From a virus, in the IMG/VR virus record IMGVR_UViG_3300028569_002813, positions 1 through 33,555 of that record: 33,555 bases of DNA; one strand, given 5' to 3'. The translations under genes were made by a program, and so were the position numbers. Below, piece by piece: positions 2,964-33,555 of this stretch (the stretch's first letter is position 1; the number at the start of each line of letters is the position of its first letter). The notes under the pieces were generated by a model that was not told where the DNA came from, made no database searches, and saw only the letters and a list, made by a program, of their open reading frames with translations.

Positions 2964-3935
2964 ATGCCCACTTATTCTCAAGTAGTAGCCTACATAGACG
3001 ACATTCGAGCCGCTACCCCTGCCAATCCGGTTTCCCATACTGACTTTGCCGACGTCCTGAAATCAGTCCTGGACTACTTCTCCAATACCGGCGCTTGGGA
3101 TCCTGTTGCTGCCATGAACGTGGCCAATTCCAAAGCAAATGTCAATGGCCAAACCTTTACGGGAACGGTAACCTTTTCAGGCCCTACCAACTTCTCCAAC
3201 CTTGCCACCTTCTCCGACCTTGCCACCTTCTCCAACAGCATCAACCTGCCCGTTGCAGGTGCCAGCGCAGCTGTTGCGGCCAAAGGCATCACTTTCAAAG
3301 ATTCGGAGTACATTCTTGGCTATGCCGGCGATACTGCAGCTGCCAATCTCATTGGAGCAATATTCTCCCACCTCGACTCAGCCTCCTACGCTTTTCGCCT
3401 CGGTAAACATACAGGGGCCGCGCTCTTGGCAAATGGCTCCAACTACACACCCCAATTCATCATTGCAAATTCGGGCGTTGGTCACTTTGCCTCCCGCCTG
3501 CATATCAACATCGGGAGCGACTTCACCGACCAAACCGTCCCGCTCTATGTCAATGGAGCAGGCCGCGTAGTTGGGCTATTATCACCCAACCGCCTCGCGG
3601 GAGCATCCGCCGCCCCAACCATTGCCGCAGGCACTGGAGCCGGCACCACACCCACCATCAGCATTGTTGGCAACGACATAGCGGGCAGAATCACCATCAC
3701 TACGGGCACAACCCCTGTAGCCAACGCTACCATTGCCACCGTTACGTTTGCAGGCGGAGCATTCGCCGCTGCCCCCTACATACACCTGACGCCCTCCAAC
3801 CAATTAGCCGCCGCCTTGAGTGGAGCCAATATGGTATTTCCGTCATCCACCACTACTACGTTGGTGCTCACCTCCGGCACCACTGCCCTTACCGCCGCCA
3901 CTACTTATACCTTCAACTATCTTATCATTCAGTAA
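2964..3935 (+). CDS. Tail-fibre or appendage-like structural protein
   Basis: A 323-residue Ala/Thr/Ser-rich protein of low complexity. The first about 40 residues form a small helical N-terminal domain. Then comes a repeated phage-fibre-like stretch (TFSGPTNFSNLATFSDLATF), a region rich in Gly and Ala, and a beta-rich C-terminal domain with alternating Thr/Val and NYLIIQ at the end. This layout (anchor, shaft, C-terminal beta domain) fits a short tail fibre or receptor-binding appendage. The assignment is by composition and context rather than a diagnostic motif. It is the first gene after a strong terminator and a CCGTCC-type promoter. Minus-strand frames opposite it arise from its biased codons. 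Confidence 0.6.
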   Translation: MPTYSQVVAYIDDIRAATPANPVSHTDFADVLKSVLDYFSNTGAWDPVAAMNVANSKANVNGQTFTGTVTFSGPTNFSNLATFSDLATFSNSINLPVAGASAAVAAKGITFKDSEYILGYAGDTAAANLIGAIFSHLDSASYAFRLGKHTGAALLANGSNYTPQFIIANSGVGHFASRLHINIGSDFTDQTVPLYVNGAGRVVGLLSPNRLAGASAAPTIAAGTGAGTTPTISIVGNDIAGRITITTGTTPVANATIATVTFAGGAFAAAPYIHLTPSNQLAAALSGANMVFPSSTTTTLVLTSGTTALTAATTYTFNYLIIQ

Positions 3936-5708: not shown

Positions 5709-6272
5709 ATGACAAATGTAATCCGCATCCGTCCCGACGAAGATAAACTTCAGAAATACCGCGATTACTACGCCGGAGCCGCTGAATTGGACGAAGAAGA
5801 AAAAAAGTACCTCGACCGTTACGAACGCGTCATGTTGCTTTTTGAGCAAAACGAAGCCGACGAAGAACAGCCCGTTTGGACCCGTTCCGCCATCGTCAAA
5901 TTTGTCAGGGAGCATTATAAAGTGTCAGTTCAGATGTCCAACCGCATCGTCAACGAAGCCTTGGAATTATTCGGAGACATGCAACAGCTTTCTCTCCGGG
6001 CAAGAAAATCCTTTCGTCTTCAGCACTTGGATCGCCGCGAAAAAGACGCTGTAGCCTATGGTGACCTCATGGCCGCGGCTCGTCTAAACGACCAAATCAA
6101 CAAGATTCTCGGCACTTACAAAGAAGAGCTTACCACCGAAGAAGACGAAACCGACTACTCCGTTCCCACCACTATTAATTACGAACCGATAGATGTCCCT
6201 TACGAACTTATCCCGGACCATCCCCCTCAACCCGTGGCAAATCGAATTCCTCAAAGCACCGCAAAGAATTAA
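5709..6272 (+). CDS. Putative terminase small subunit
   Basis: A 187-residue acidic protein directly upstream of the large terminase and overlapping it by 80 bp. The N-terminal about 45 residues are highly charged. A helical region at about 55-95 (WTRSAIVKFVREHYKVSVQMSNRIVNEALELFG, described here only by position) looks like the DNA-binding helix-turn-helix part of TerS proteins. It is followed by a long helix (RLQHLDRREKDAVAYGDLMA) suited to oligomerisation and an extended C-terminal tail. TerS recognises phage DNA and hands it to the motor. The call rests mainly on gene order and fold pattern. Confidence 0.7.
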   Translation: MTNVIRIRPDEDKLQKYRDYYAGAAELDEEEKKYLDRYERVMLLFEQNEADEEQPVWTRSAIVKFVREHYKVSVQMSNRIVNEALELFGDMQQLSLRARKSFRLQHLDRREKDAVAYGDLMAAARLNDQINKILGTYKEELTTEEDETDYSVPTTINYEPIDVPYELIPDHPPQPVANRIPQSTAKN

Positions 6273-7689
6273 AGCCGCCGTCTGTGGCCGTGGTTCTGCC
6301 AAAACCAACACCCTCAACCACGTCATCGGACTCTCGGCCCGCAATCTCCCACGTGCCAAAGCATCACTCAATTGTACCCATTTTGGGCAAGCGCTCGAAA
6401 TCATTCTCGAACAATCGGAAGATGTCTGGAAAAGCTACGGACTCTATCCCTACGACCCCAAAACAGGCCGTGGCAACTATACCCTATTTCGACGCCCTCC
6501 CGACGACTGGACCCGTCCTATTTATGCGCCCAAAAAGTGGGAAAATGTCATCAGTTTCAAAACAGGCTATGCCCTGCAGCTGAGAAGCTACGACCGTCCC
6601 AATACCAACCGAGGTGGTAACGACTCCCAAAACTTCATCGACGAAGCTGGCTGGTTCAAAGAAGAATGGATTAACAAAATCATCCTTCCCCGAAACCGTG
6701 CTCCGCTCGACATCCAATCCAATCTCAACCTCGCTTTCTACTTTTTTACCTCCGTTCCCACCCACTCCGAAGGTCAGTGGATATGGAAATACGAGCAACT
6801 CGCCAAGGATCAGCCCGCAAAATACCGTTTCAACGAAGCCACCGCCAAGGATAATTATGCGTTGTTGGCCAAGGTTCCCGACTACATCGAAACCCAACGC
6901 GAAATCTTGGACCCCATCACCTTCGCCATCGAAATGATGAACGAGCGGATGACTCAGTTGGCTAACGGATTTTACCCAAGTTTTAACCAGGAGCGTCACG
7001 TTCAGCACGGCTATAACTACGATTTTGATGACGAACTCGGCCTGTGGCACAAAGAATTTAATGATTATGATGCCGAGGCAGTACTGGAAGTTTCTGTCGA
7101 TGCCAACGCGTCATTCACCTGTTGCTCCATTTGGCAGGAAAAGAAAGACACCGAAAACTGCATCAATGCACTTTTTGTGAAGCCCAACGAGGAAAAATCA
7201 AACCTCGTTCAGCGGCTTGCCTTCAAGTTTCACGAAACCTACGCCGCTCATAAAAAGAAAGTGGTGTATCTCTGGGGTGACCGAAATCTAACCTCCAAAG
7301 CCTCCCAAACCGCTGCTACTCAGCAGGATGTTTTCACCGAAACCCTGCGATTATTGGGCTGGACGGTTATCTCCAGAGTAAACGGTTTCAACTGGCTCCA
7401 CAAAGACAAACACTTTTTCATTGATGAGATTCTGAACGAAAAAAATCCACGTTTGCCCAAGATTCGATTCAATGCAAAAAAATGCCAATCCCTGATTTAT
7501 TCTATTCAGCAGGCACCAATAAACGACGATTTTACGAAGGATAAAAAATCTGAAGGCCGCAAAATTCCGCAAGAACTCGCCACCCACCTTTCCGATACGT
7601 TTGACTACTATGCCTGTGGCAAATACGGCAGCCGTACCGGTCGTTTTGGGGCTTCTGCCTCGGTTATACCGGCTTTAGGTTGGCTGTAG
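6193..7689 (+). CDS. terL: Terminase large subunit (packaging ATPase/nuclease)
   Basis: This 498-residue protein has both TerL domains. In the ATPase part, Walker A is GRGSAKT (32-38) after an NPWQIEFL adenine-binding motif, and Walker B is NFIDEA (147-152). In the RNase H-like nuclease part, acidic residues are visible in VSVDANAS (D303), LWGDRN (D363) and LSDTFDYY (D468/D471). It pumps DNA into the prohead and cuts the concatemer. ATG 6193 overlaps TerS by 80 bp but preserves the whole N-terminal ATPase lead-in, and no later ATG would keep Walker A. After it the packaging order is broken: an integrase block sits where the portal gene would be expected. Confidence 0.95.
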   Translation: MSLTNLSRTIPLNPWQIEFLKAPQRIKAAVCGRGSAKTNTLNHVIGLSARNLPRAKASLNCTHFGQALEIILEQSEDVWKSYGLYPYDPKTGRGNYTLFRRPPDDWTRPIYAPKKWENVISFKTGYALQLRSYDRPNTNRGGNDSQNFIDEAGWFKEEWINKIILPRNRAPLDIQSNLNLAFYFFTSVPTHSEGQWIWKYEQLAKDQPAKYRFNEATAKDNYALLAKVPDYIETQREILDPITFAIEMMNERMTQLANGFYPSFNQERHVQHGYNYDFDDELGLWHKEFNDYDAEAVLEVSVDANASFTCCSIWQEKKDTENCINALFVKPNEEKSNLVQRLAFKFHETYAAHKKKVVYLWGDRNLTSKASQTAATQQDVFTETLRLLGWTVISRVNGFNWLHKDKHFFIDEILNEKNPRLPKIRFNAKKCQSLIYSIQQAPINDDFTKDKKSEGRKIPQELATHLSDTFDYYACGKYGSRTGRFGASASVIPALGWL

Positions 7690-11255: not shown

Positions 11256-11292
11256 CCGTCCTTTCCCCTCCCGTTTCTACCCGCCAATTTAG
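11256..11292 (+). promoter_or_regulatory. Putative phage promoter, CCGTCCTTTC type
   Basis: CCGTCCTTTC (11256-11265) is followed after 19 bp by CAATTTAG (11285-11292), an imperfect TAnnTTTG box. It lies in the gap between the minus-strand gene and the portal block, as a promoter of that block should. Confidence 0.5.
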
Positions 11293-14010: not shown

Positions 14011-14823
14011 ATGACAACTACCAACCAACGCCAACTAAGAAACGGTTCGCCTTCTTCCCCCGAAGTCGTCATCGCACTCAACGGGAAAACCATCACTTCC
14101 GACCAACTGGAAGCCTTGCAAAAGCAGGCAGTCGAAGCCGCTGAATTAGCTAATCAAGCAGCTTTGCAGCTACAGGAAGCCGAAAAAAGCAAGCAAGAAG
14201 CCAGCAAAAAGCAGCTACAGCGCGAATATGAGGGTATTTTAGCCGATGCTGATAACTACCGTAAGTCATCACGTAACCCTGATATTTCCGAAACTGAACG
14301 CGAAAAATTCCTGCGTTGGTCAGCCGCCGCCGAAGCCAATGCCCGCGAATTAGGAATTGAACTGGGTATCGTTGCGCCCGAAGTGGACGAAGATGAAAAA
14401 ACCGCCACCGCCCGCCGTAATAAGCTGCACCGCATTTTGGCCATTTGCCAAGTACTTGGTTTGCTCGGAATCCTCTGGATGACCCTCGACGCCTTCTTTT
14501 GGGTGGGCGATGTGATCACCCAACACAACGCCAACGTCCCCGAAGGTGGTCAAACCCTCCGCCCTGCCTACGACCTGTCGAGTGTACAAAAGTACATCTA
14601 CGAGAGCTTCACCATGTTTGCCGATTTGCCACGCGCCGCCCTTCTGTGCCTGTTGGTCATGCCAACAGTAGTGCTGTACATTGTCCCTATTATCAAATCA
14701 AAAAAAGATTTCTGGACCGAATTCTTTACTGACCTCACCCCATGGCAACGATCAATTTTAAGCGTCATTACTATTATTGGATTCTTGTTATTATCAGTCT
14801 TGGCGCACATGGCCAAACCGTAA
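14011..14823 (+). CDS. Multi-pass membrane protein with N-terminal coiled coil
   Basis: This 270-residue protein has a cytoplasmic N-terminal half with a long Ala/Gln/Glu-rich coiled coil (about residues 35-110). Three hydrophobic segments follow: about 148-170 (ILAICQVLGLLGILWMTLDA), about 208-228 (AALLCLLVMPTVVLYIVPI) and about 247-267 (SILSVITIIGFLLLSVLAHM). It overlaps the next gene, an exported endolysin-like protein, by 82 bp. The combination suggests a lysis cassette in which this protein could be a holin, antiholin or regulator. Function is otherwise unknown. Confidence 0.6.
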   Translation: MTTTNQRQLRNGSPSSPEVVIALNGKTITSDQLEALQKQAVEAAELANQAALQLQEAEKSKQEASKKQLQREYEGILADADNYRKSSRNPDISETEREKFLRWSAAAEANARELGIELGIVAPEVDEDEKTATARRNKLHRILAICQVLGLLGILWMTLDAFFWVGDVITQHNANVPEGGQTLRPAYDLSSVQKYIYESFTMFADLPRAALLCLLVMPTVVLYIVPIIKSKKDFWTEFFTDLTPWQRSILSVITIIGFLLLSVLAHMAKP

Positions 14824-15356
14824 AAGCACCCAAGCCAAGTTTTCCCACAAAGCCCGTTGTGACGAATGAAGCCGAGTTGCGTCGTGCAATTTGTGACACT
14901 GCCAAAACCCAACTGAAACTGCGTGAAAAGCCCGGAGCCAACAACCAGCACCCACAAATCACCATCTACAACCGAGCCCTTGGAGTGCCCGCCAATGCCT
15001 TCTATTGCGCCTCTGGAGGCTATTGGTGCCACCTCAAAAACGGTGTTCGTCTCCCCATTTCCGCACCTGCTGCCGTGCGGTCGTGGTTTGCCGACCCCAA
15101 AAAGCACGTCAAATGGAAGCAAGGCGAAAAAGTGCAGTTGTTCGATGCCGTGTCCCTCTTCAAAAGCCACGTCGAATTCGTAGCCGATCCTGCGGGATTC
15201 GATGACGATGACGAAGATTTCGTGAAACTCATCGGCTTCAACACCACTGGTGCAAGTACCAAAATGCAAGGCTGTTACCTTAATTACCGCCACAAAGACT
15301 GGATAAAAGCCGTAGCCAATCACATTACCCCATTTTTAAAATCACAAAAACCATGA
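14742..15356 (+). CDS. CHAP-like peptidoglycan amidase/peptidase (endolysin)
   Basis: A 204-residue protein with an N-terminal hydrophobic signal (YYYWILVIISLGAHGQ). The cysteine-peptidase-like domain has a Cys region AFYCASGGYWCHLKNGV (about 87-102, nucleophile probably C89) and the His motif FKSHVEFVAD (H143). The closing segment (LIGFNTTGASTK, then GCYLNYRHK) corresponds to the GN-rich end of CHAP domains. It would cut peptidoglycan crosslinks or stems in the periplasm. The signal peptide implies Sec export rather than release by a large-hole holin. It is ATGA-coupled to the downstream small membrane protein (15353-15356). Confidence 0.78.
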   Translation: MATINFKRHYYYWILVIISLGAHGQTVKAPKPSFPTKPVVTNEAELRRAICDTAKTQLKLREKPGANNQHPQITIYNRALGVPANAFYCASGGYWCHLKNGVRLPISAPAAVRSWFADPKKHVKWKQGEKVQLFDAVSLFKSHVEFVADPAGFDDDDEDFVKLIGFNTTGASTKMQGCYLNYRHKDWIKAVANHITPFLKSQKP

Positions 15357-20752: not shown

Positions 20753-20788
20753 CCGTCCTTTCCACTCCCATTTTACCCCATTTCTTTG
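20753..20788 (+). promoter_or_regulatory. Putative phage promoter, CCGTCCTTTC type
   Basis: CCGTCCTTTC (20753-20762), 18 bp, then TTTCTTTG (20781-20788), a near-match to TAnnTTTG. It is bracketed by palindromic repeats R4 and R5 and precedes the tape-measure block. Confidence 0.6.
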
Positions 20789-21383: not shown

Positions 21384-24300
21384 ATGGATTTAAGAGAACA
21401 GGCAGTCATTGAACTGATGCTCGAAACCAAGAAAGCCAATACCGAATTGGCGGGCCTCGAAGCAAATGCCAAAACCCTCAACAGCGAGCTCAAGAAAGTT
21501 GCCAAAACGGTAGGGGAAGGCTCTGACGAATGGAAGGCCGTAAAAGCTCAAGCCGATGAAGCAAGTAAGGCGGTGGTTGCCCATCGCCTCAATGTAGATG
21601 CCTCAAAACTCACCTACGGCCAACTGCAAAACCTTGTCAAGCAGTTAACCAATGATGTGAAAGGCTTAGTGCCGGGAACGGACGCTTTCAATGACGCCGT
21701 CAAACGCCTCAATGCCGCTGAAGACCAACTCAAAAAGGTCAATACGCAGGTGAAAGGCACCAACGAAGCCCTTGCCGAGACCTCTAAGCCCACGCTCTGG
21801 AACAATATCACGGGTGGTATCGGAAAAATGTCCACCCTTTTTCAAGGCTTCATTGGCCTTCAGGTTGTGCAGTTTTTGTGGGATATGGGCAAGGCCATAT
21901 TCGATATTACTGCCAAGTTTGAGAAGTACGAAAAAGTTCTTGAAACTGCGTTAGGTGGCCAAAAAGAAGCGAAAGCCGCAATGGAAGCCATCAAAATAAT
22001 GGCTGCCAATACGGCTTTCAGTGTGGACGAACTCACCGAAGGGTACGTCAAAATGGTCAATCGTGGCCTTCGACCTACGCAAAAAGAAATGGTCTCACTC
22101 TCCGACCTTGCCGCTTCTCAAGGCAAAACGTTTGACCAACTCGTCGAAGCCGTTTTAGACGCCCAAACTGCTGAATTTACACGATTAAAAGAGTTTGGAA
22201 TAAACGCAAAAAAGGAAGGTGATAATATTTCCCTCAGTTTCAAAGGTCAAACCCAAGTTGTTAAAAACAACGAAGAAGCTATTCTTGCCGCCATTGTGGC
22301 CATGGGTGCCATGACAGGCGTAGCAGGTCAGAACGCCAAAATGATGGAAACGTTAGGAGGCAAAACCTCCAATTTGGGCGACAATTTCGACTCTTTGATG
22401 GTAACGCTGGGTACAGGTCTCCGCCCTGTTTTTGTGGCTATTCTCGACCTGCTCAATGCCTCCATTCCGGTACTTCTGTTTGTTGGGCAAACGATTGGTA
22501 CGGTAGTCGTAGCAGCCAAAAGCCTAATCATGGGCATGGTCGATACCGTCAAAAACGGTGGAATGGCAATTGTTTCTCTCGCAGAGGCAGTAACCCAAGT
22601 GTCACAGGGAAACCTTGCAGGAGCAAAACTCTCGCTCGACAATGCCGTTGACTACGGTAACAAAACCCTCACTTCAATGAATTCCAATATTCAGCAGGGA
22701 GTCAAAGAAACCATTGCCATTTGGAAAGACCCAACTGCTGAGATTGAGTCAAAGTTTGCAGCGAAAAGACAAGGTGAAGCCCATTGGAAAACACTAAATG
22801 AAGAACAGAAAAAAGGATTTGATGAGCAAGTTAGAGCTTATAAATCTCAAGGAATAACCTTGACTGACGAACAAAAAAACACCCTTGCAAAACAGATAAA
22901 AGCGCACGAAGATTTTAACATAAATCTTACAGACGACCAAAAGAAATCACTCGAAGAGCGAAAAGCAGCCCAGAAAAAGCACTTGGAGGAAGTTCAGAAA
23001 GCCAACGAAGATGCCGTTGCTCAACTCAAAGACCTTAATCAGGAACTCTACCTTGACCACGTCAAACGTACCAAAGGCGAGTTGGAAGCATCCCGCGAAA
23101 AACTTCGCCTCGCTTACGAAGATGAAGTTGAAGCCGTCAATAAGTCCGTAGCCTCCAAGTCCAAAAAGGACGAATTGATTGCGGCATTGGAGAAAAAATA
23201 CCAAAACGACCTCACCGACCTCACCGAGCAACAATCCAAAACCCGAGCTGAAATCGTTGAACGATGGGTGGAAGATGAGTTTGTGAAGAAAATCAAAAAA
23301 GCCCAGGACTTTGCCAACTCCGAAAAGAAACGCATTGCCGAAAACATTGCCGATGAAAAGGAGCGAACTGAACTCATCCAAAAAGTAGAAAAGTGGCTCG
23401 ACGATGAAGTCAGAGGCATCAAAAAAGAAAAAGCCGATAAAGAAGCCGAACAACGAGCCGATGACCTAAAAAAGGAGCAGGAACTGGCCGATAAAAAGCT
23501 AAACGTTGAAAAGACCCTCAACGAACAGGAGCGTGCGGCCAACAAAGCCCTATTTGATTGGCGTGAATTAACGGCAAAAGGCAATGCCAATAAGTTAGCC
23601 GAAATCAAAAAGGAACAACTTGCTGCCGAGCTAAAGTACCTGCTTGAAAAGCTACGCATTGAGGAAGCCGAGGAACGGGCCAAAGCCGAGCGAGACATTA
23701 CCAATTCTGACCAGCTTGGCACTGCCATCAAAAACATCGAAGACCGTTTCCGAAACGAGCGACTTACCGCCGAAAAGAAAACCGCCGATGAAATAAAGCA
23801 GGTCGAAAAAGAACTCAAAGAAGCCCGAAACGCCCGTTGGAAGGAAGGCTCCGACGGCATCAAAGCCCTGCTTGAAGGCGACCTCAGCGGCTTTGTAGGT
23901 CACATGGGCAACATCGTGAAAGGCGAAAAATCTGCTTGGCAGGAACGCCTCTCCGAAAACATGGAGAAATACGAGGCTGTGGCTCAGTTGGCTCAAGCCG
24001 CCGTGGCCTTCCTCAAAAAACTCTCCGAGGAGCGCCTCAAGCGCGAACTTGCCGACATTGAAAAAGAAAAAACGGCCAAAATCGCCGCTGAAGAGGCCAA
24101 AACCGAAGCCACCATTGACGCCATCGAAGCCCAGCGCGATGCTGAACTCGACCGAGTTGAACAGGAATTGTTGGCCAATCAGTTAGAGAAAAAAGAGTTG
24201 ACAGAACTCAACGATTCGTTTACCAAAGCAAAACAGAAAGTAGAACTTGAGTACCAAGCCAAAATAAAGGAAGCCCGCGACAAAGGCAATAAAGAGGAAG

Positions 24301-25394
24301 TAGCCCGCTTAAAGGCCGAACAAGCTGAAAAAATAGCAACCGTTAAGTCGCAAATTACCCAAGATGCCCTCGGTGCCGAGAAAGCCACCGCCATCGAAAA
24401 ACAACTTACTGCCGACAAAAAGGTCGTAAACGATAAGTACAATGCCTCTATACTTTCTGCTAAAAAGAGTCAGGAAAATAGCATTGACAACATCAATAAA
24501 CAGGCTGCTGAAAAGGAAAAAGCTGCCAAAATGAAAGCCTGGCAGGCACAGCAGAAAGCAGATATCGCATCGGCAATTATAGCCGGTGCCTTAGCTACGA
24601 TTAAGGCCTTGGCCTCCGGTTTCTTTCCTGTCAACTTGGTCTTTGCCGCCGCCACCGCCATAGCCACCGGTATCCAAGTGGCCATGATAAAGCGCCAACC
24701 CGCTCCCACCTTTTCTAGTGGTGGTATGTTGTGGAGAAACGCAGGTGTACTGCGTGGAGCATCGCACCAACAGGGAGGCATTGACATGATTGACAACACC
24801 ACAGGTCAAAAAGTAGCCGAGGTCGAAAACAAAGAAGCCTACATCGTAAGCAGTCCCGTCACCGACTATCACCGCGATACCCTCAATGAAATTATCAATC
24901 AATCATTAACAGGCAGACCCGCACCTTTGCGCCGTCGTGGCAACAAAAAACGGTATGCCATTGGCGGTGCCTTCAAGCCCGAAGGTGAACGCCCCTTTTG
25001 GGAAAAGAACTTCTACCAAGATGGCCGTCCAAGTTATGATGATAACAACGAATTTTCGGCAGGCGATTCGGGCGCCAACTCCTACGGAAGCAGTAGTAGC
25101 AGTAGCGATGGTGGTGATTATTCAGCGGGAAGCAGTGGCGATGGTGGTATCAATGTAGACGAGGCCAAAGCAGCTGGTGAGGCCGCCCGTCAGCAGGGAG
25201 AAAACCAACTCAAACTATTGGAAGAAATTGCCCGCAATACCAAAGAAACCAATGACACCGTTCGCAAATTGGGAGATAAGGTCAACGAAACCACTTCGGC
25301 AGTGCGTGGGGTAGAAGGTGCCGTTCGCGGGCAGGATCAGTCTTGGCGTTTGGATAACATCGTCAATGCAATTTCTAACTTAGGAGGGAAATAG
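21384..25394 (+). CDS. Tape measure protein
   Basis: This 1336-residue protein is the longest gene. The N-terminal about 120 residues are coiled coil. A hydrophobic/amphipathic region follows (about 150-180), and then the tape-measure domain at about 185-350 (EKVLETALGGQKEAKAAMEA; FSVDELTEGYVKMVNRGLRP; VSLSDLAASQGKTFDQLVEA), with a second hydrophobic stretch at about 360-390. Three tandem 22-residue repeats with the phrase LTDEQK lie at about 470-535. Long Lys/Glu coiled coil fills 540-1055, a hydrophobic segment lies near 1060-1100, and the tail is Ser/Gly-rich. Such proteins set tail length and are ejected with the DNA. Length would suggest a long-tailed siphovirus. Large antisense frames opposite it come from its repetitive Lys/Glu codons. 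Confidence 0.92.
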   Translation: MDLREQAVIELMLETKKANTELAGLEANAKTLNSELKKVAKTVGEGSDEWKAVKAQADEASKAVVAHRLNVDASKLTYGQLQNLVKQLTNDVKGLVPGTDAFNDAVKRLNAAEDQLKKVNTQVKGTNEALAETSKPTLWNNITGGIGKMSTLFQGFIGLQVVQFLWDMGKAIFDITAKFEKYEKVLETALGGQKEAKAAMEAIKIMAANTAFSVDELTEGYVKMVNRGLRPTQKEMVSLSDLAASQGKTFDQLVEAVLDAQTAEFTRLKEFGINAKKEGDNISLSFKGQTQVVKNNEEAILAAIVAMGAMTGVAGQNAKMMETLGGKTSNLGDNFDSLMVTLGTGLRPVFVAILDLLNASIPVLLFVGQTIGTVVVAAKSLIMGMVDTVKNGGMAIVSLAEAVTQVSQGNLAGAKLSLDNAVDYGNKTLTSMNSNIQQGVKETIAIWKDPTAEIESKFAAKRQGEAHWKTLNEEQKKGFDEQVRAYKSQGITLTDEQKNTLAKQIKAHEDFNINLTDDQKKSLEERKAAQKKHLEEVQKANEDAVAQLKDLNQELYLDHVKRTKGELEASREKLRLAYEDEVEAVNKSVASKSKKDELIAALEKKYQNDLTDLTEQQSKTRAEIVERWVEDEFVKKIKKAQDFANSEKKRIAENIADEKERTELIQKVEKWLDDEVRGIKKEKADKEAEQRADDLKKEQELADKKLNVEKTLNEQERAANKALFDWRELTAKGNANKLAEIKKEQLAAELKYLLEKLRIEEAEERAKAERDITNSDQLGTAIKNIEDRFRNERLTAEKKTADEIKQVEKELKEARNARWKEGSDGIKALLEGDLSGFVGHMGNIVKGEKSAWQERLSENMEKYEAVAQLAQAAVAFLKKLSEERLKRELADIEKEKTAKIAAEEAKTEATIDAIEAQRDAELDRVEQELLANQLEKKELTELNDSFTKAKQKVELEYQAKIKEARDKGNKEEVARLKAEQAEKIATVKSQITQDALGAEKATAIEKQLTADKKVVNDKYNASILSAKKSQENSIDNINKQAAEKEKAAKMKAWQAQQKADIASAIIAGALATIKALASGFFPVNLVFAAATAIATGIQVAMIKRQPAPTFSSGGMLWRNAGVLRGASHQQGGIDMIDNTTGQKVAEVENKEAYIVSSPVTDYHRDTLNEIINQSLTGRPAPLRRRGNKKRYAIGGAFKPEGERPFWEKNFYQDGRPSYDDNNEFSAGDSGANSYGSSSSSSDGGDYSAGSSGDGGINVDEAKAAGEAARQQGENQLKLLEEIARNTKETNDTVRKLGDKVNETTSAVRGVEGAVRGQDQSWRLDNIVNAISNLGGK

Positions 25395-25430: not shown

Positions 25431-25898
25431 ATGAATCGTAAAATAGAGGTAAAAGTTCCAGTTCCGCGTTATGTGAAGAAGTTTTTGGAACGTACGTATC
25501 GTTATGAGAAAGGCGCTATTTACGTTCGCCGCGACGAAACCCTCGGTATCCTGATTGAGTCGCTTTTGGAGAAAAACTTCACCTCCCATCCACCCAAAGA
25601 AGCTGAGGGGTGTTGCGTAGTTATCAAGATTTACCAGGACGCGAAACTGTTGCACGTGCCCGAGCACCGGCTCCATTACCTGACCAAGATTCTGACCGAT
25701 GAGTTTGAAGAAGCCCTCAAATATTACAGCCAATGCGGGTATTCTATATCCCGCGCCTATGAGCCGCATATTAAACGGTTTCTCGAAATGTACGATATCG
25801 ATGACGATGACTTGAGTGTCAATACCGCCGCCCGAAAACTCCGCACGGCGGAAGAGAAAATAGAGCTCAAACAAAAAAAATTTTGCGACGTTATGTGA
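25431..25898 (+). CDS. Small protein encoded next to a direct-repeat array
   Basis: A 155-residue protein, not assigned to a family. The first half is basic (VPVPRYVKKFLERTYRYEKG) followed by LGILIESLLEKNF. The middle is alpha/beta (CCVVIKIYQDAKLLHVPEHR), and the C-terminus is acidic then Lys-rich (FLEMYDIDDDD; TAEEKIELKQKKFCDVM). A basic N-terminal segment plus helices would fit DNA binding. Its stop codon lies within the first of four 20-bp direct repeats (25885-25964), the arrangement of a gene and its own binding sites. It may be an initiator, partition or regulatory protein; this is inference. Its insertion among tail and head genes is unusual. Confidence 0.6.
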   Translation: MNRKIEVKVPVPRYVKKFLERTYRYEKGAIYVRRDETLGILIESLLEKNFTSHPPKEAEGCCVVIKIYQDAKLLHVPEHRLHYLTKILTDEFEEALKYYSQCGYSISRAYEPHIKRFLEMYDIDDDDLSVNTAARKLRTAEEKIELKQKKFCDVM

Positions 25899-25964
25899 CC
25901 GATTGCGACGTTATGTAACCGATTGCGACGATACGTAACCGATTGCGACGTTATGTAATAATTT
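25885..25964 (+). repeat. Four 20-bp direct repeats (iteron-like)
   Basis: Four contiguous units beginning GCGACG at 25885, 25905, 25925 and 25945. Consensus GCGACGTTATGTAACCGATT; the second copy matches it exactly, the first differs at one position, and the third and fourth are more divergent. Each contains the dyad GTTA-TG-TAAC or a variant. The exact 20-bp period puts every site on nearly the same DNA face. A partial inverted match lies near 25993. Confidence 0.92.
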
Positions 25965-26070
25965 CCCGATAAATCAAAAACCCGTAACCGTCTTACATAC
26001 AAGGTGCAACGATGTAGTCAAAAATACTTTTTTAATCCACACCCCCTCAAAAACCCGTCCCTTCAAAATT

Positions 26071-26616
26071 ATGGAAAACCTCAAAATAGGCGATTGGAAA
26101 GGTAGCAATAACGCAGGTTACGTCCGTCGTTTGGTGCTCGTTCCTGACACTGATATCGAATACCTGCCTGATCCTTCCTTACTGTTAGGCTACACCGACA
26201 CCCAACTCATCAATATGGCAGATGTACCCATCAATGCCGATGCTCAGACCATCACCTTCGATTTTCCTGCCAAGACCTGTCAATACAACCTTTCGCAAAA
26301 TCAGTCGAATGATGGCCCATTGTACCTAATAAGTATTCAAGGTCTGCTTCCAAAGTTATTGGCTGCTATTGCACGAAATTTGGGAAAAGGTCGTAATCTC
26401 CGATGGATTGCTTTTTTTCAAGACCACAACAGCAACTTCTACATTGCAGGTACTCCAGACTATCCACTTACGCTTACCTACTCGCAATCCATCAACGACC
26501 AAAACAATACCGCCATATTTGTGGCAGGTCGTACCCCCAACGCTCCGCTCAATACTACAGCCCTCCCCATTCTAACCCGAACATTCAGCACCGGCTTCAG
26601 TCGTGCTTTTGCGTAA
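26071..26616 (+). CDS. Tail-tube-like protein, paralogue 1
   Basis: This 181-residue protein has the alternating-strand pattern of tail-tube proteins. It begins YVRRLVLVPDTDIEYLPDP, then has ITFDFPAKTCQYNLSQNQ and a helix (LLPKLLAAIARNLGKGRN). A RWIAFFQDHNSNFYIAGTP hairpin and a final strand region (TAIFVAGRTPNAPLN) follow. The same order is seen in the C-terminal 184 residues of the gene at 29043-29825, so the two look like divergent paralogues. It might form a tube or tail-tip ring. CCGTCC (26055) is present just upstream but too near the ATG to act as the promoter type seen elsewhere. Confidence 0.55.
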   Translation: MENLKIGDWKGSNNAGYVRRLVLVPDTDIEYLPDPSLLLGYTDTQLINMADVPINADAQTITFDFPAKTCQYNLSQNQSNDGPLYLISIQGLLPKLLAAIARNLGKGRNLRWIAFFQDHNSNFYIAGTPDYPLTLTYSQSINDQNNTAIFVAGRTPNAPLNTTALPILTRTFSTGFSRAFA

Positions 26617-26630
26617 GTTTATAGGTAAAT

Positions 26631-26662
26631 AGAAAGGATGGTCTTAAAATACCGTCCTTTCT
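26631..26662 (+). terminator. Hairpin terminator between tail and head genes
   Basis: A 12-bp stem (AGAAAGGATGGT at 26631-26642, ACCGTCCTTTCT at 26651-26662, one G-T pair) with loop CTTAAAAT. The arms are A-rich then T-rich, as in bidirectional terminators. It contains CCGTCCTTTC by virtue of its arm, so it should not be counted as a clean promoter copy. Confidence 0.65.
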
Positions 26663-26705: not shown

Positions 26706-27476
26706 ATGATGGTGCAAGTTATTCCCTCCGGTCTATACGCAATCAAAGACGAAACGCATATTAGTGTTGCGCAGGCCTCTGCATTTCCAATTCTCTCCCG
26801 TGAGGATATGCAGCGCCTCAATAATTTTAGAAGCTCGGAGAATCCTTCCATTTTCGAATTTTCAATTGATGGGTTCATATCTCCATCCTCTATCAACTAC
26901 TACACAAGGATTCTGGAAATTGCCAATCGCGCCAGCGATATCAAAGGCGTATTGCTCGAAATCAAAACGGCGGGGGGAATGGTCGACCAATTGGTAGCCT
27001 TTGCTGATTTTCTGTACAAGTACCCCAAGCCCATCGTTACCCACACTTCTTATTGCTGCTCTGCGGGCTGTTGGATAGCTTCCCAAACCAACGAGATCAT
27101 TGCCGAGCCTCAAAGCTCCACCGAAATCGGCAGTATCGGAATCATCTACGTTCACTACGACCAATCCGCCATGTACGAAAAGCAGGGTATCAAAGTGATA
27201 GTGTTCCGCAGTGAAGGTTCTACCCGCAAAGGAGTTCCCAACTCATACGAACCGCTCGACCCTGAATCAGCCGCCCGCTTCCAAGCCCGGGTCAATGCCG
27301 CCAACGTAGAGTTTAAATCCTACGTTCGCCGTGGCCGTGGAATGCGCCTCAAGTCCGACGCTGTTTGGACCGGCGATACTTTCGATGCCGATGCTTCTGT
27401 TGCCGTTGGCCTTGCCGACCGCAAAGGCACCTATGCCCAAGCCCTTCAACGCGTCATTCAACTTTCCGACAAATAA
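26706..27476 (+). CDS. S49-family (SppA/ClpP-like) head maturation protease
   Basis: A 256-residue protein with the S49 peptidase layout: a substrate-strand region (GVLLEIKTAGGMVDQLV, about 81-97), the Ser motif SYCCSAGCWIASQTNEIIAE (Ser119), the QSSTEIGSIGIIYVH loop (136-150), and a downstream Lys (K175 in STRKGVPNS) suited to a Ser/Lys dyad. It probably trims scaffold and capsid proteins in the prohead. It is followed 7 bp later by the scaffold and then the major capsid protein, which is the usual order. It is preceded by a hairpin terminator. Confidence 0.88.
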   Translation: MMVQVIPSGLYAIKDETHISVAQASAFPILSREDMQRLNNFRSSENPSIFEFSIDGFISPSSINYYTRILEIANRASDIKGVLLEIKTAGGMVDQLVAFADFLYKYPKPIVTHTSYCCSAGCWIASQTNEIIAEPQSSTEIGSIGIIYVHYDQSAMYEKQGIKVIVFRSEGSTRKGVPNSYEPLDPESAARFQARVNAANVEFKSYVRRGRGMRLKSDAVWTGDTFDADASVAVGLADRKGTYAQALQRVIQLSDK

Positions 27477-29042: not shown

Positions 29043-29825
29043 ATGAAAAATTTCCTTAAAATCTTAGCCTTTACCCTGCTTTTTATAGGGTTTACGAGCC
29101 CAAATGAAGCCCAAATTTTGCCTTTTTTTTACAATCCTGCCATCGAATGCACACAGGAAAGTGCAAAAGTCTGTATTGTAAGTCAAGTAGTTGAAGCAAG
29201 CCGGACAGTTGCCGAATTCGTACAATACCACAACCCATTTTCTGAACATAAAAATGATGCTGCACCTGTTATGGGGTTAGTTGCGTTGGTAGGTATTCGA
29301 CGAAAATCAGGCCCAAAACCGGGTGGCAACAAACGACTGTATCTGTGTCCTATTGATCAGCTCCAAGATGTAGAATTTCCTACGTATGCTGACGCCGTTG
29401 CGGGTGAAATTATCACACCTATTCCCCTTATCTTAACTCCTACGCCTCAGAAATTTACCGAGATTCAAGCAGCTTACGACACAACAAAATGGGGTTTTTC
29501 CTCGAAAGGAAAGTCTGGGAACCAATCCTTCGAACAAAACGTCAGTTTTGACATTTACGGGATTGACAAAGACTCTATTTCGTTAGTAGCCAAGTTGCTT
29601 AATAGACCCTGCGTCATCATCGCTCGTGGCAATAACAACACCAATTACTTCGTCGGCTCAATCGACACCCCACTCGAATTTGAGATTCAATCCGATTCAG
29701 GAGCAAAAGGGTCAGATCCTCAGAAAATCACTTTTGCTGCCAAAAATGACGGTCTAATGTTTCCTGTCATTCCGCTTGGCACAGCTGCTACCTTCGCAGT
29801 TGAGCCGTTGCCTGCCCTTGCATAA
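29043..29825 (+). CDS. Tail-tube-like protein, paralogue 2, with odd N-terminal extension
   Basis: The open frame is 260 residues. Residues 77-260, from ATG 29271 (MGLVALVGIRRKSG), resemble the tube-like protein at 26071: KRLYLCPIDQLQDV, then SFEQNVSFDIYG, LVAKLLNRPCVIIA, TNYFVGSIDTPLEFEI and KITFAAKNDGLMF. This could be the major tube protein. Residues 1-76 instead form a Sec-type signal peptide (FLKILAFTLLFIGFTSPNEA) plus a short exported-looking segment, which makes no sense on a tube protein. The true start may be 29271, leaving a 338-bp region with a hairpin and a REP unit upstream. A gene fusion or deletion remnant is the alternative. Confidence 0.6.
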   Translation: MKNFLKILAFTLLFIGFTSPNEAQILPFFYNPAIECTQESAKVCIVSQVVEASRTVAEFVQYHNPFSEHKNDAAPVMGLVALVGIRRKSGPKPGGNKRLYLCPIDQLQDVEFPTYADAVAGEIITPIPLILTPTPQKFTEIQAAYDTTKWGFSSKGKSGNQSFEQNVSFDIYGIDKDSISLVAKLLNRPCVIIARGNNNTNYFVGSIDTPLEFEIQSDSGAKGSDPQKITFAAKNDGLMFPVIPLGTAATFAVEPLPALA

Positions 29826-31387: not shown

Positions 31388-31423
31388 CCGTCCTTTCGTG
31401 CAAGCATTGTGGGAATACTTTTG
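31388..31423 (+). promoter_or_regulatory. Putative phage promoter, CCGTCCTTTC type (best copy)
   Basis: CCGTCCTTTC (31388-31397), 18 bp, then TACTTTTG (31416-31423), a full match to TAnnTTTG. It is 24 bp before the ATG at 31448. This copy favours a start at 31448 rather than 31409, which would lie upstream of the -7 box. Confidence 0.7.
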
Positions 31424-31447
31424 CAGCCCAAACAAAATACCCACACC

Positions 31448-32245
31448 ATGACAGTTGTAAAACCCCTCTTCAAAACCCCAATCACCTACTATGGAGGCAA
31501 ACAAATGATGCTTCCCCAAATCATCCCCAAAATTCCAACCCACAAAACCTACATTGAACCATTTTTCGGAGGTGGGGCTATTTTCTGGGGAAAAGAACCA
31601 TCCGATGCCGAGGTCGTCAATGACCTAAACAGTAACCTCATTACCTTTTATAAGGCACTCAAATACGACTTTGATGCATTAAAAACGATGGTTGATGAGA
31701 CATTTCACAGCCGAGCTCAGCATAAGGATGCCGACGATATTTATGAGAACCCCGCGGAAAAAGATGACCTCCGTACTGCATGGGCAGTCTGGGTCCAAAC
31801 TAATATGTCCTTCGGGAGCATGATAGGAGCGGGCTTTGGATATGACCGAAACGGGAAATGCCCACTGAAACTTTTCAATAAAAAGGAGGCTTTGACCTCG
31901 GCCTATAAAGACCGCCTCAAAAAAGTCACTATTGAAAATAACGACGTTTTCAAGGTCATCAAAGCCTATGATTCTCCCGACGCCTTTTTTTACCTTGATC
32001 CGCCTTATGTTTCATCAAATCAAGGTCACTACTCAGGATACAGCGCCGACGATTTCAAAAAGCTGCTTGATGTCTGCTCCCAGCTACAAGGCAAATTTCT
32101 GCTGAGTTCTTATCCCGAAACTCAACTTTTTGAATACATCAATAAATTTGGTTGGAAAAGCGAAACACACGAAAAAAACCTCGCAGTTGACGGGCGTCGT
32201 AAAGAAAAGAAGAAAAAGACCGAATGCCTGACGTGGAACTACTGA
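31448..32245 (+). CDS. D12-class DNA adenine methyltransferase
   Basis: This 265-residue protein has TYYGGKQMM (about 13-21), YIEPFFGGGAIFW (motif I, about 35-47), and DPPY (motif IV, 184-187) in FFYLDPPYV, with the family's Asn-rich and aromatic pattern between. Such enzymes transfer a methyl group from AdoMet to N6 of adenine. Phages use them to evade restriction or to mark DNA. ATG 31448 is chosen because it follows the CCGTCC-type promoter and keeps all motifs. It is an isolated gene ended by the minus-strand terminator region; no partner restriction enzyme was seen. Confidence 0.93.
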   Translation: MTVVKPLFKTPITYYGGKQMMLPQIIPKIPTHKTYIEPFFGGGAIFWGKEPSDAEVVNDLNSNLITFYKALKYDFDALKTMVDETFHSRAQHKDADDIYENPAEKDDLRTAWAVWVQTNMSFGSMIGAGFGYDRNGKCPLKLFNKKEALTSAYKDRLKKVTIENNDVFKVIKAYDSPDAFFYLDPPYVSSNQGHYSGYSADDFKKLLDVCSQLQGKFLLSSYPETQLFEYINKFGWKSETHEKNLAVDGRRKEKKKKTECLTWNY

Positions 32246-32389: not shown

Positions 32390-32638
32390 TTATTCGGACT
32401 CGACTTCTATCAAAAAGCCGTTTTCGATTAATCTCGAAAAAACGTGCAAATCCATCAACTCCTTTACCGGTTTCTGCACTTTTTCTCCCTCCCATTCATC
32501 CAGGCGCTGCCATAAGTCATTTAAAAAGTCTCCATGAAATTTGTCGGCATCAAATAATGACGTTTTTTGATAGGCTTTTAATATATCGGTAGAAGTACTG
32601 CCTTGCAGTACCTCCCCGGTTGTTGTTTTGTATGTCAT
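32390..32638 (-). CDS. Hypothetical partner of the amidoligase
   Basis: An 82-residue acidic protein with no recognised family. It has a Thr/Ser/Lys start (TYKTTTGEVLQGSTSTDIL), an aromatic middle (FLNDLWQRLDEWEG), and ends with acidic residues (LIEVESE). It is ATGA-coupled to the amidoligase gene (32635-32638), so the two are almost certainly co-translated. Amidoligase-family genes are known to occur beside small genes that could encode their substrate or a partner. Which of these applies here is inference. Confidence 0.65.
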   Translation of the reverse strand: MTYKTTTGEVLQGSTSTDILKAYQKTSLFDADKFHGDFLNDLWQRLDEWEGEKVQKPVKELMDLHVFSRLIENGFLIEVESE

Positions 32639-33555
32639 GCGGCTAAATCGTTTCTGCGGTTATAAAGATAATTGTAAATCTCCGGTTGGTTAAATTTCTG
32701 TAAGCTTTCAAAAGTCGCTTCTGATTCCGACACTTTGTGCTTTTTAGAGAAGTCAACCAAATTATGTAAAAACATGACCCAATTTTTGATTTTTTCAAAT
32801 TCGGTCGTTCCGCTATGTTGGCGAAACTCAATGCTTCCGTGTCTGATAAAGCTTTGAAGGTTAATTTTTTGGTAGCGAGTGCCGATGGCCGTGGCTAATT
32901 CTCTAATTCCCGTTGCGGCTTCTATTTTAGCCTTTTCGCTTCGTAGGCTTTTGCAGTATTGGTTATTGTTTCCCCGGCGGCTGTTTGGAAGAAAAGTATC
33001 TATTTGACTTTCATAAGCAGCATAATTAAGCATCAAATTCTTTACCTCGTTGATGCCCATCCCTGCGGCATCAAAATGGACGTGCGTTCCGCAGGTTTTG
33101 TTGATTTTTGCTCTTATCGAAGTCAAAGCCTCACAAACCTTTCTCAATTCCTCAAGCCCGGCTTCTCCTTCCAAAATCGGGCTTACGATTTCAAAACCGT
33201 TGTCGCCGCTGATGCTTGCGTCGGTTACAATTTTCCACCATCCGCGAGTGCTATGGTTATAACTTTCATCTTCAATTCTGATTCCTGCCGTTCTGATGGC
33301 TGCAAGTACCTTCGAGCGCGTTACTCCGTGGGCTTCAATTTCAATCCCGAATTTTTTGTTGAAAACAGATGGGCGAAAAATCCCTTTTATTTGAACTTGG
33401 CTTGGCCAGTACTTTGCAAAAACATTCTGAACAAATCCGTAATTGCCACCTGTCAAATCAGCAACCTCTCTTCTGGTTAATCCCAAAGCCAAAAGCTGCC
33501 GAATTTTCTCTGTTTTTGTAAGGCTTTCGTTGCTTAAAATCGTTTGCGTATTCAT
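32635..33555 (-). CDS. Amidoligase-family (glutamine-synthetase-like COOH-NH2 ligase) protein with N-terminal HTH
   Basis: This 306-residue protein has a catalytic domain with FGIEIEAHGV (69-78), CGTHVHFDAAG (155-165) and SIEFRQHSGT (241-250). These are the acidic and His/Arg motifs expected of the Amidoligase_2 fold, which uses ATP to join a carboxylate to an amine. Residues about 10-55 contain KTEKIRQLLALGLTRREVAD, a helix-turn-helix-like N-terminus that may bind DNA or be a recruiting module. The window ends exactly on its ATG (33553-33555), so upstream signals are unseen. It leads the minus-strand operon with the 82-residue gene and a terminator. Confidence 0.88.
   Translation of the reverse strand: MNTQTILSNESLTKTEKIRQLLALGLTRREVADLTGGNYGFVQNVFAKYWPSQVQIKGIFRPSVFNKKFGIEIEAHGVTRSKVLAAIRTAGIRIEDESYNHSTRGWWKIVTDASISGDNGFEIVSPILEGEAGLEELRKVCEALTSIRAKINKTCGTHVHFDAAGMGINEVKNLMLNYAAYESQIDTFLPNSRRGNNNQYCKSLRSEKAKIEAATGIRELATAIGTRYQKINLQSFIRHGSIEFRQHSGTTEFEKIKNWVMFLHNLVDFSKKHKVSESEATFESLQKFNQPEIYNYLYNRRNDLAA

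Follow-up and report, generated by a model that had tools for sequence, protein, structure and literature searches.

What do four 20-bp direct repeats do at the very end of a small gene, between the tail and head genes of a phage, and which protein reads them? The window in which they lie is the whole stretch of DNA analysed here, an entire IMG/VR record of 33,555 bases; because the nearest relative of the repeat-bearing gene was found in Runella sp. MFBS21, its source reads as a phage or prophage of a Runella-like bacterium. Upstream of this gene, which encodes 155 aa, lies the tape measure gene (21384-25394, 1336 aa), and after the array a gene of 181 aa is followed by those for an S49 head-maturation protease (at 26706), a scaffold-like coiled-coil protein and a probable capsid, for which a single-sequence search of viral contigs and phage records gave no match. 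The original prediction placed the array between tape measure and head genes, and the PHROG tape-measure and S49 protease matches bear this out. A D12 adenine methyltransferase gene (31409-32245) comes after the virion genes, and an amidoligase gene on the minus strand (32635-33555) reaches the window's end. A very divergent TerL-like ORF (6193-7689), with Walker A GRGSAKT and Walker B FIDEAG motifs (both read by eye) and without a match in Pfam or PHROGs, is preceded by an ORF in the TerS position (5709-6272) that has a helix-turn-helix-like stretch. The features of the locus are as follows.

25431..25898, plus strand: 155-aa gene, proposed late-regulator protein and candidate binder of the array (ORF; 80 non-redundant relatives; AlphaFold2 model)
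25885..25964, plus strand: array of four 20-bp direct repeats in the register of the original prediction, unit 4 degenerate (Tandem Repeats Finder and consensus match)
25890..25900, plus strand: unit 1 core, about -5 to +5 round GTGACC at 25895, including the gene's stop codon TGA (alignment with relatives)
25910..25920, plus strand: unit 2 core, GTAACC at 25915 (alignment with relatives, core limits)
25930..25940, plus strand: unit 3 core, GTAACC at 25935 (alignment with relatives, core limits)
25950..25960, plus strand: unit 4 core, degenerate, GTAATA at 25955 (alignment with relatives, core limits)
26055..26064, plus strand: CCGTCCCTTC box, 102 bp from the unit 4 core, homologous to the GTCC box of relatives (weak for the window itself)
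26071..26616, plus strand: next gene, 181 aa, NAGYVRxL family, first after the array (ORF; protein of no known function)

Tandem Repeats Finder reports the array at 25883-25958 with period 20, 3.8 copies, 91% matches and a score of 131, which makes it the top-scoring tandem repeat of the whole window. Together with the matches of the units to their consensus (19/20 at 25885, 20/20 at 25905, 18/20 at 25925 and 16/20 at 25945), this confirms the four contiguous 20-bp repeats that had been predicted at 25885-25964. As was also predicted, the array begins within the last codons (Cys-Asp-Val-Met) of the 155-aa ORF, so that its units straddle the stop codon. No further copy of the unit with up to three mismatches occurs elsewhere in the window, where shuffles lead one to expect 0.00; an 18-bp tandem repeat at 3187-3236 runs in coding phase within a 323-aa ORF (2964-3935). 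The dyad that had been proposed for each unit is present in the window as an imperfect GTTATGTAAC, but it is specific to the window, the units of relatives being asymmetric direct repeats. Judged from those relatives, the functional register in the window is GTGACC, GTAACC, GTAACC and GTAATA at 25895, 25915, 25935 and 25955, and these cores are nearest to the GTAACG arrays of three loci (L036, L126, L129).

The product of the adjacent gene is a small basic protein, within the about 130-170 aa sought in a late regulator; its predicted pI is 8.2, and relatives range from 8.2 to 9.7, with a median of 9.3 among those that bear arrays. AlphaFold2 modelled it with a mean pLDDT of 89 and a pTM of 0.81, predicting a beta-alpha-beta-alpha-beta N-terminal part, a long central helix and two C-terminal helices. 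It belongs to no Pfam or NCBIfam family and no named PHROG family: similarity to the late-regulator families described in these three collections is absent, and profile searches of the same collections gave no match to a replication family. A Pfam Pfk_N match fell below its cut-off and was set aside, as was phrog_19731 (unknown function), matched by one family member alone. An Rfam search gave no match. A fold search of the PDB with the model found nothing significant and no recognised DNA-binding domain, and its weak DdmD and PTP1B rows were set aside as non-significant.

The sole strong structural match is gp39 of the Polaribacter phage Leef_1, an uncharacterised protein of 157 aa that is a true homologue (Foldseek E 5e-7, TM-score 0.74, hhalign probability 98%). 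Its gene lies two genes before the head protease/capsid gene and has no array after it; AAAGATTACA sites are found upstream of it instead. Seven such AAAGATTACA-like sites, in both orientations and with three of them 40 bp apart, occupy 29150-29397 of Leef_1, in the gap that separates gp38, the integrase gene, from gp39. Either the integrase, with these as its arm sites, or gp39 itself could be what binds them.

Is the association of gene and array peculiar to this phage? Single-sequence searches (tblastn) for the 155-aa gene in viral contigs and annotated phage records returned no relative, and the nearest one, 74% identical, came from a scan of genome contigs of Runella sp. MFBS21, where four 20-bp units stand at the same place in other letters. 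From this Runella seed, searches of whole genomes and viral contigs gathered relatives from 21 and later 61 of the 222 genomes searched in one bacterial family, from 27 of 390 at the level of the order and from 9 of 395 at that of the class, as well as from 21 viral contigs. The array statistics were calculated on 80 non-redundant relatives (<85% identity). The score for a four-unit array exceeded all of its own shuffles in 55 of these 80, and in 52 of those it was at least 0.55; these 52 have their four units at a spacing of 20-21 bp, in the same position and in different letters. The core letters by clade are AAAAAGTCCGG, AAAGGCCA, TTTGGGCCGGAT, AAAGTCCACTT, TTTTGTCCG, GTAACGGATTTGCG, CGTCGGT, TTTTGTCAGGG, GTTGTTCAC and TGTCCT, and the window's own repeat letters, exact or degenerate, found no match in viral contigs or in the Runella genome. 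The repeat letters are private, with the geometry alone in common, and a gene-plus-array layout of this kind recurs across viruses of Spirosoma/Runella-like bacteria. The proposal that the two form a pair, to be sought in close relatives that keep the gene, is sustained in that the Runella locus with the 74% identical gene and most others retain the four-unit 20-bp array with changed letters.

Within about 360 kb of phage loci round the gene, period-20 signals occur at this place only, and the other periodic signals are mostly multiples of three, as in coding DNA. Among the units of one array, a core of about 11 bp, from -5 to +5 about the core G, is conserved (0.59-0.90), and the spacer between cores is at background (0.34-0.41), several of the registers having been set by hand on a GTCC-like core. 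A conserved core with a random spacer at exact spacing means that the spacing itself is selected, and that the repeats are not merely recent duplications. Such spacing would be as expected for proteins lying side by side on one face of the helix, in support of the predicted iterated sites for cooperative protein binding. In three loci (L125, L126, L129) the arrays are mixed: the unit closest to the promoter is of GTCC type, and three others are of GTAAC type. A Hymenobacter-like clade and other distant relatives possess the gene and no array, and a search for relocated arrays in five array-less Hymenobacter-like and related loci found none that was convincing, with the exception of L084. There, a two-unit 21-bp repeat (CCCGGTTTGTCCCAGGAATTT; about 14795-14825, minus strand) precedes a different GTCC-27-type promoter; since the 25431-family gene of this genome is array-less, it is perhaps an array that has moved.

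If the letters differ from phage to phage, with what do they change? The more alike two 155-aa proteins are, the more alike are their array cores (rank correlation 0.65), and a partial Mantel test that controls for the next gene leaves 0.61 (permutation p 0.001). The converse test, core similarity against the next gene with the 155-aa protein controlled for, gives 0.00 (p 0.47). The core letters therefore change along with the 155-aa protein, and the next gene has no part in this, although part of this co-divergence is plain linkage, since the array overlaps the 155-aa gene. The result supports, and does not prove, the 155-aa protein as putative binder of the array.

The sequence that follows the array points to a target. 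In most relatives a terminator hairpin comes after it, then GTCCTTTY, 27 bp and TAnnTTYG, with the ATG of the next gene 3-5 bases on; measured from the last G of the TAnnTTYG box in 33 loci, the ATG stands 2-7 bases away, mostly 4. TAnnTTTG is the -7 box of the Bacteroidota housekeeping sigma factor and is placed at -12 to -5 (PMC9723704), which would set the start of transcription at the ATG or within a few bases of it. The virion-operon mRNAs of these relatives would then be leaderless or nearly so. In six whole host genomes the combination GTCC-N-TAnnTTYG occurs no more often than its reversed control, and it is thus not a general host promoter. The GTCC box also occurs at other phage promoters that have no array, and it is constant while array cores drift (GGCC, GTAAC, GTTCAC, GTCGG). 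In the window, CCGTCCTTTC boxes occur at 2908-2944, 11256-11265, 20753-20762, 26652-26661 and 31388-31423, and those at 2908 and 31388 are followed 26-27 bp on by TACCTTCG or TACTTTTG, just before a gene. They look like a phage-specific late promoter class that is present in relatives too.

A promoter-like element follows the gene in all 37 relatives measured, and its distance from the array is discontinuous: the unit 4 core lies 67-69, 78-79 or 88-91 bp from the promoter GTCC in 37/37 loci, with none between. The phase resultant is 0.86 at a period of 10.9 bp, against 0.54 for the largest of 2000 null draws, and when the data are collapsed to 16 values a resultant of 0.854 is reached in 0/5000 draws. 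The protein tree requires at least 10 switches among the three distance classes, and proteins 75-81% identical (L026, L008 and L032) stand at 67, 78 and 89 bp. Gains and losses of length in the stretch from array to promoter are thus accepted only when they amount to whole helical turns. The period agrees with the helical repeat of 10.95-11.6 bp that DNA loops display in living E. coli (PMC1762422). A "regulatory centre" was one of the roles originally suggested for the array, and it is the one that phasing to a virion-operon promoter favours.

The window and its closest kin depart from this arrangement. The last core and the GTCC box are separated by 102 bp in the window and by 113 and 81 bp in the Runella loci L004 and L006, respectively, a deviation of 1.3-2.1 bp from the mean phase in a register set by hand. 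In these three no -7 box stands at +27, and the ATG follows the GTCC box after only about 11-16 bases. For the window's CCGTCCCTTC box the ATG is only about 13 bp away, and this GTCC box is the sole promoter-like element found there. No plus-strand terminator was found in the window; the DNA after the array, read by eye, is moderately AT-rich, and in most relatives it forms a GC-rich hairpin. With -7 box and terminator missing in its clade, the mechanism in the window rests on its relatives, and we infer from them binding by the 25431 protein, an activating effect and operation of the same mechanism here. The L019 and L025 groups are exceptions of another kind: their promoter box is 30 bp from the last unit, out of phase, and array core and promoter box share GTCC or GTGTCCT. 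In one genome of the latter group (G050), three near-identical copies of the gene (L025, L028, L030) each have an array of three TGTCC units spaced at 21 bp, from which the promoter box is a further 30-bp step away, and the terminator precedes the array.

Our preferred reading, to which we give a probability of about 0.6, is that the 25431 gene encodes a small DNA-binding late regulator, that the array contains its cognate sites and that it acts on the promoter of the next virion operon. The sequences themselves establish that the array exists, that it recurs along with the gene in a fixed geometry, that it co-diverges with the protein and that in relatives it is phased with the promoter. In the proposed mechanism, the 25431 product would bind the four 20-bp repeats that stand where its own gene ends, and about four copies, side by side on one face of the helix, would act on the promoter of the next operon (GTCC box, 27 bp, TAnnTTYG box and a start codon few bases on). 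The protein would most likely be an activator, contacting RNA polymerase at this phage-specific promoter or looping to it. As the gene lies directly behind the tape measure gene, the regulator may couple the tail block to the virion block that follows.

Late regulators of Gram-positive phages have a matching layout. In Staphylococcus phage phi13, Ltr, of the Ltr/RinA group, is likewise a small basic protein, encoded immediately ahead of the late promoter that it controls. Four repeats occupy the 3' end of that gene, from -107 to -42 relative to the start site, and the late promoter is lost when they are deleted (PMC13123087). The phi13 repeats lie amid the genome's switch to packaging genes, and the present array lies between tail and head genes. 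The present system further differs in its 20-bp units placed further upstream, the terminator that usually intervenes, the helical distance classes and the Bacteroidota-type -7 box, and the 155-aa protein has no sequence relation to the NCBIfam or Pfam models of Ltr/RinA regulators. Alt of Lactococcus phage TP901-1 (140 aa), as summarised in the same source, is a late activator that binds four imperfect direct repeats just after its own gene, at -76 to -32 from the start (PMC13123087), again nearer to the promoter than the array is here. Profile comparison found Alt and the 155-aa protein unrelated (hhalign probability 0.1%). The 25431 protein would accordingly resemble an Ltr in its way of working and not in sequence. 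Loops made by lac repressor and AraC share with the present system a dependence on helical phase of about 11 bp per turn in living cells (PMC1762422); the phasing reported here is natural variation across genomes and not a measurement, and the proteins are unrelated.

The same phasing admits an opposite effect, in that the protein might hold array and GTCC box together, loop out the intervening 67-113 bp and so silence the virion promoter, in the manner of lac repressor on O1 and an auxiliary operator; a timing brake or a negative feedback would then be the role of the gene. Phasing of about 11 bp over 6-10 turns is the behaviour of repression loops (PMC1762422), most array cores resemble the promoter box in being GTCC-like, with letters common to both in the L019 and L025 groups, and the placing of the GTCC box in the window's clade, immediately ahead of the ATG and with no -7 box, would suit an operator. 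We nonetheless think repression unlikely, given the constancy of the box while cores drift, its presence at phage promoters without arrays and the fact that the known four-repeat systems at the ends of regulator genes are activators (PMC13123087). A GTCC box that changes with the array core was found in few groups only (L019, L025, L015), so that one shared binder for both elements is unproven. Less probable again is binding of the array by some other factor, a phage regulator or host protein, to which the neighbouring gene is merely linked. That Hymenobacter-like relatives retain the gene without the array would fit such a factor, and the overlap of array and gene means that co-divergence could be linkage; yet the core letters track the 155-aa protein after control for a next gene only about 150-200 bp off, which itself adds nothing. 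Nor would a host factor be expected to need a different core in each clade, and prophages of a single genome (G195) have GTCCGG in L010 and L026 and GTCGGT in L029.

A role of the array in RNA, as an attenuation or antitermination site in the 3' untranslated region, is suggested by its usual place between stop codon and intrinsic terminator, but we hold it to be very improbable. In the three G050 loci the order is reversed, which would put the array outside the transcript of the gene and points to DNA, and its RNA fold is not unusual (z -0.13). The fixed 20-bp spacing with random spacer and the phase relation to the promoter, a property of double-stranded DNA, argue in the same direction. Direct repeats of about 20 bp that overlap the gene of their presumed binder also resemble the iterons of the lambda origin, of plasmids and of terminase sites, and a replication origin and a partition site were among the roles originally suggested for the array. 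We find a replication origin, partition site or packaging (pac) site the least credible reading of all, and the comparison with lambda superficial, the late regulators of Gram-positive phages being closer. The array is phased to a promoter and sits among structural genes (tape measure, tail, head) with no replication gene beside it, and what usually follows it, read by eye, looks like a GC-rich terminator hairpin more than an AT-rich unwinding element. Against a pac site, the TerS-position and TerL genes lie 20 kb away at 5709-7689 and have no similarity to the 155-aa protein, which also speaks against the 155-aa gene as a small terminase beside TerL. Recurrence, co-divergence and helical phasing to the promoter together make a DNA-bound regulator of the next virion operon far likelier than an origin or an RNA element.

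Beyond the locus itself, we tentatively suggest a wider picture, which is possible but doubtful as a whole. The proteins may form a new and fast-diversifying family in Bacteroidota phages, each regulator having a private four-site array and driving the virion operon by a helix-phased, looped contact across an intrinsic terminator onto a phage-only promoter class, GTCC-27-TAnnTTYG, with the start codon at or near the start of transcription; the same protein may read the GTCC box of other late promoters and so be a global late activator of the whole phage group. Late-gene control in Bacteroidota phages appears little described, and a literature search on the subject found nothing. A protein family without a curated match, a target array and a promoter signature would together make late operons and their regulators recognisable in many prophages. 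Dozens of diverged pairs of protein and array offer natural variation from which to learn how this unmatched fold reads DNA, and the natural 11-bp distance classes make looping versus activation directly testable.
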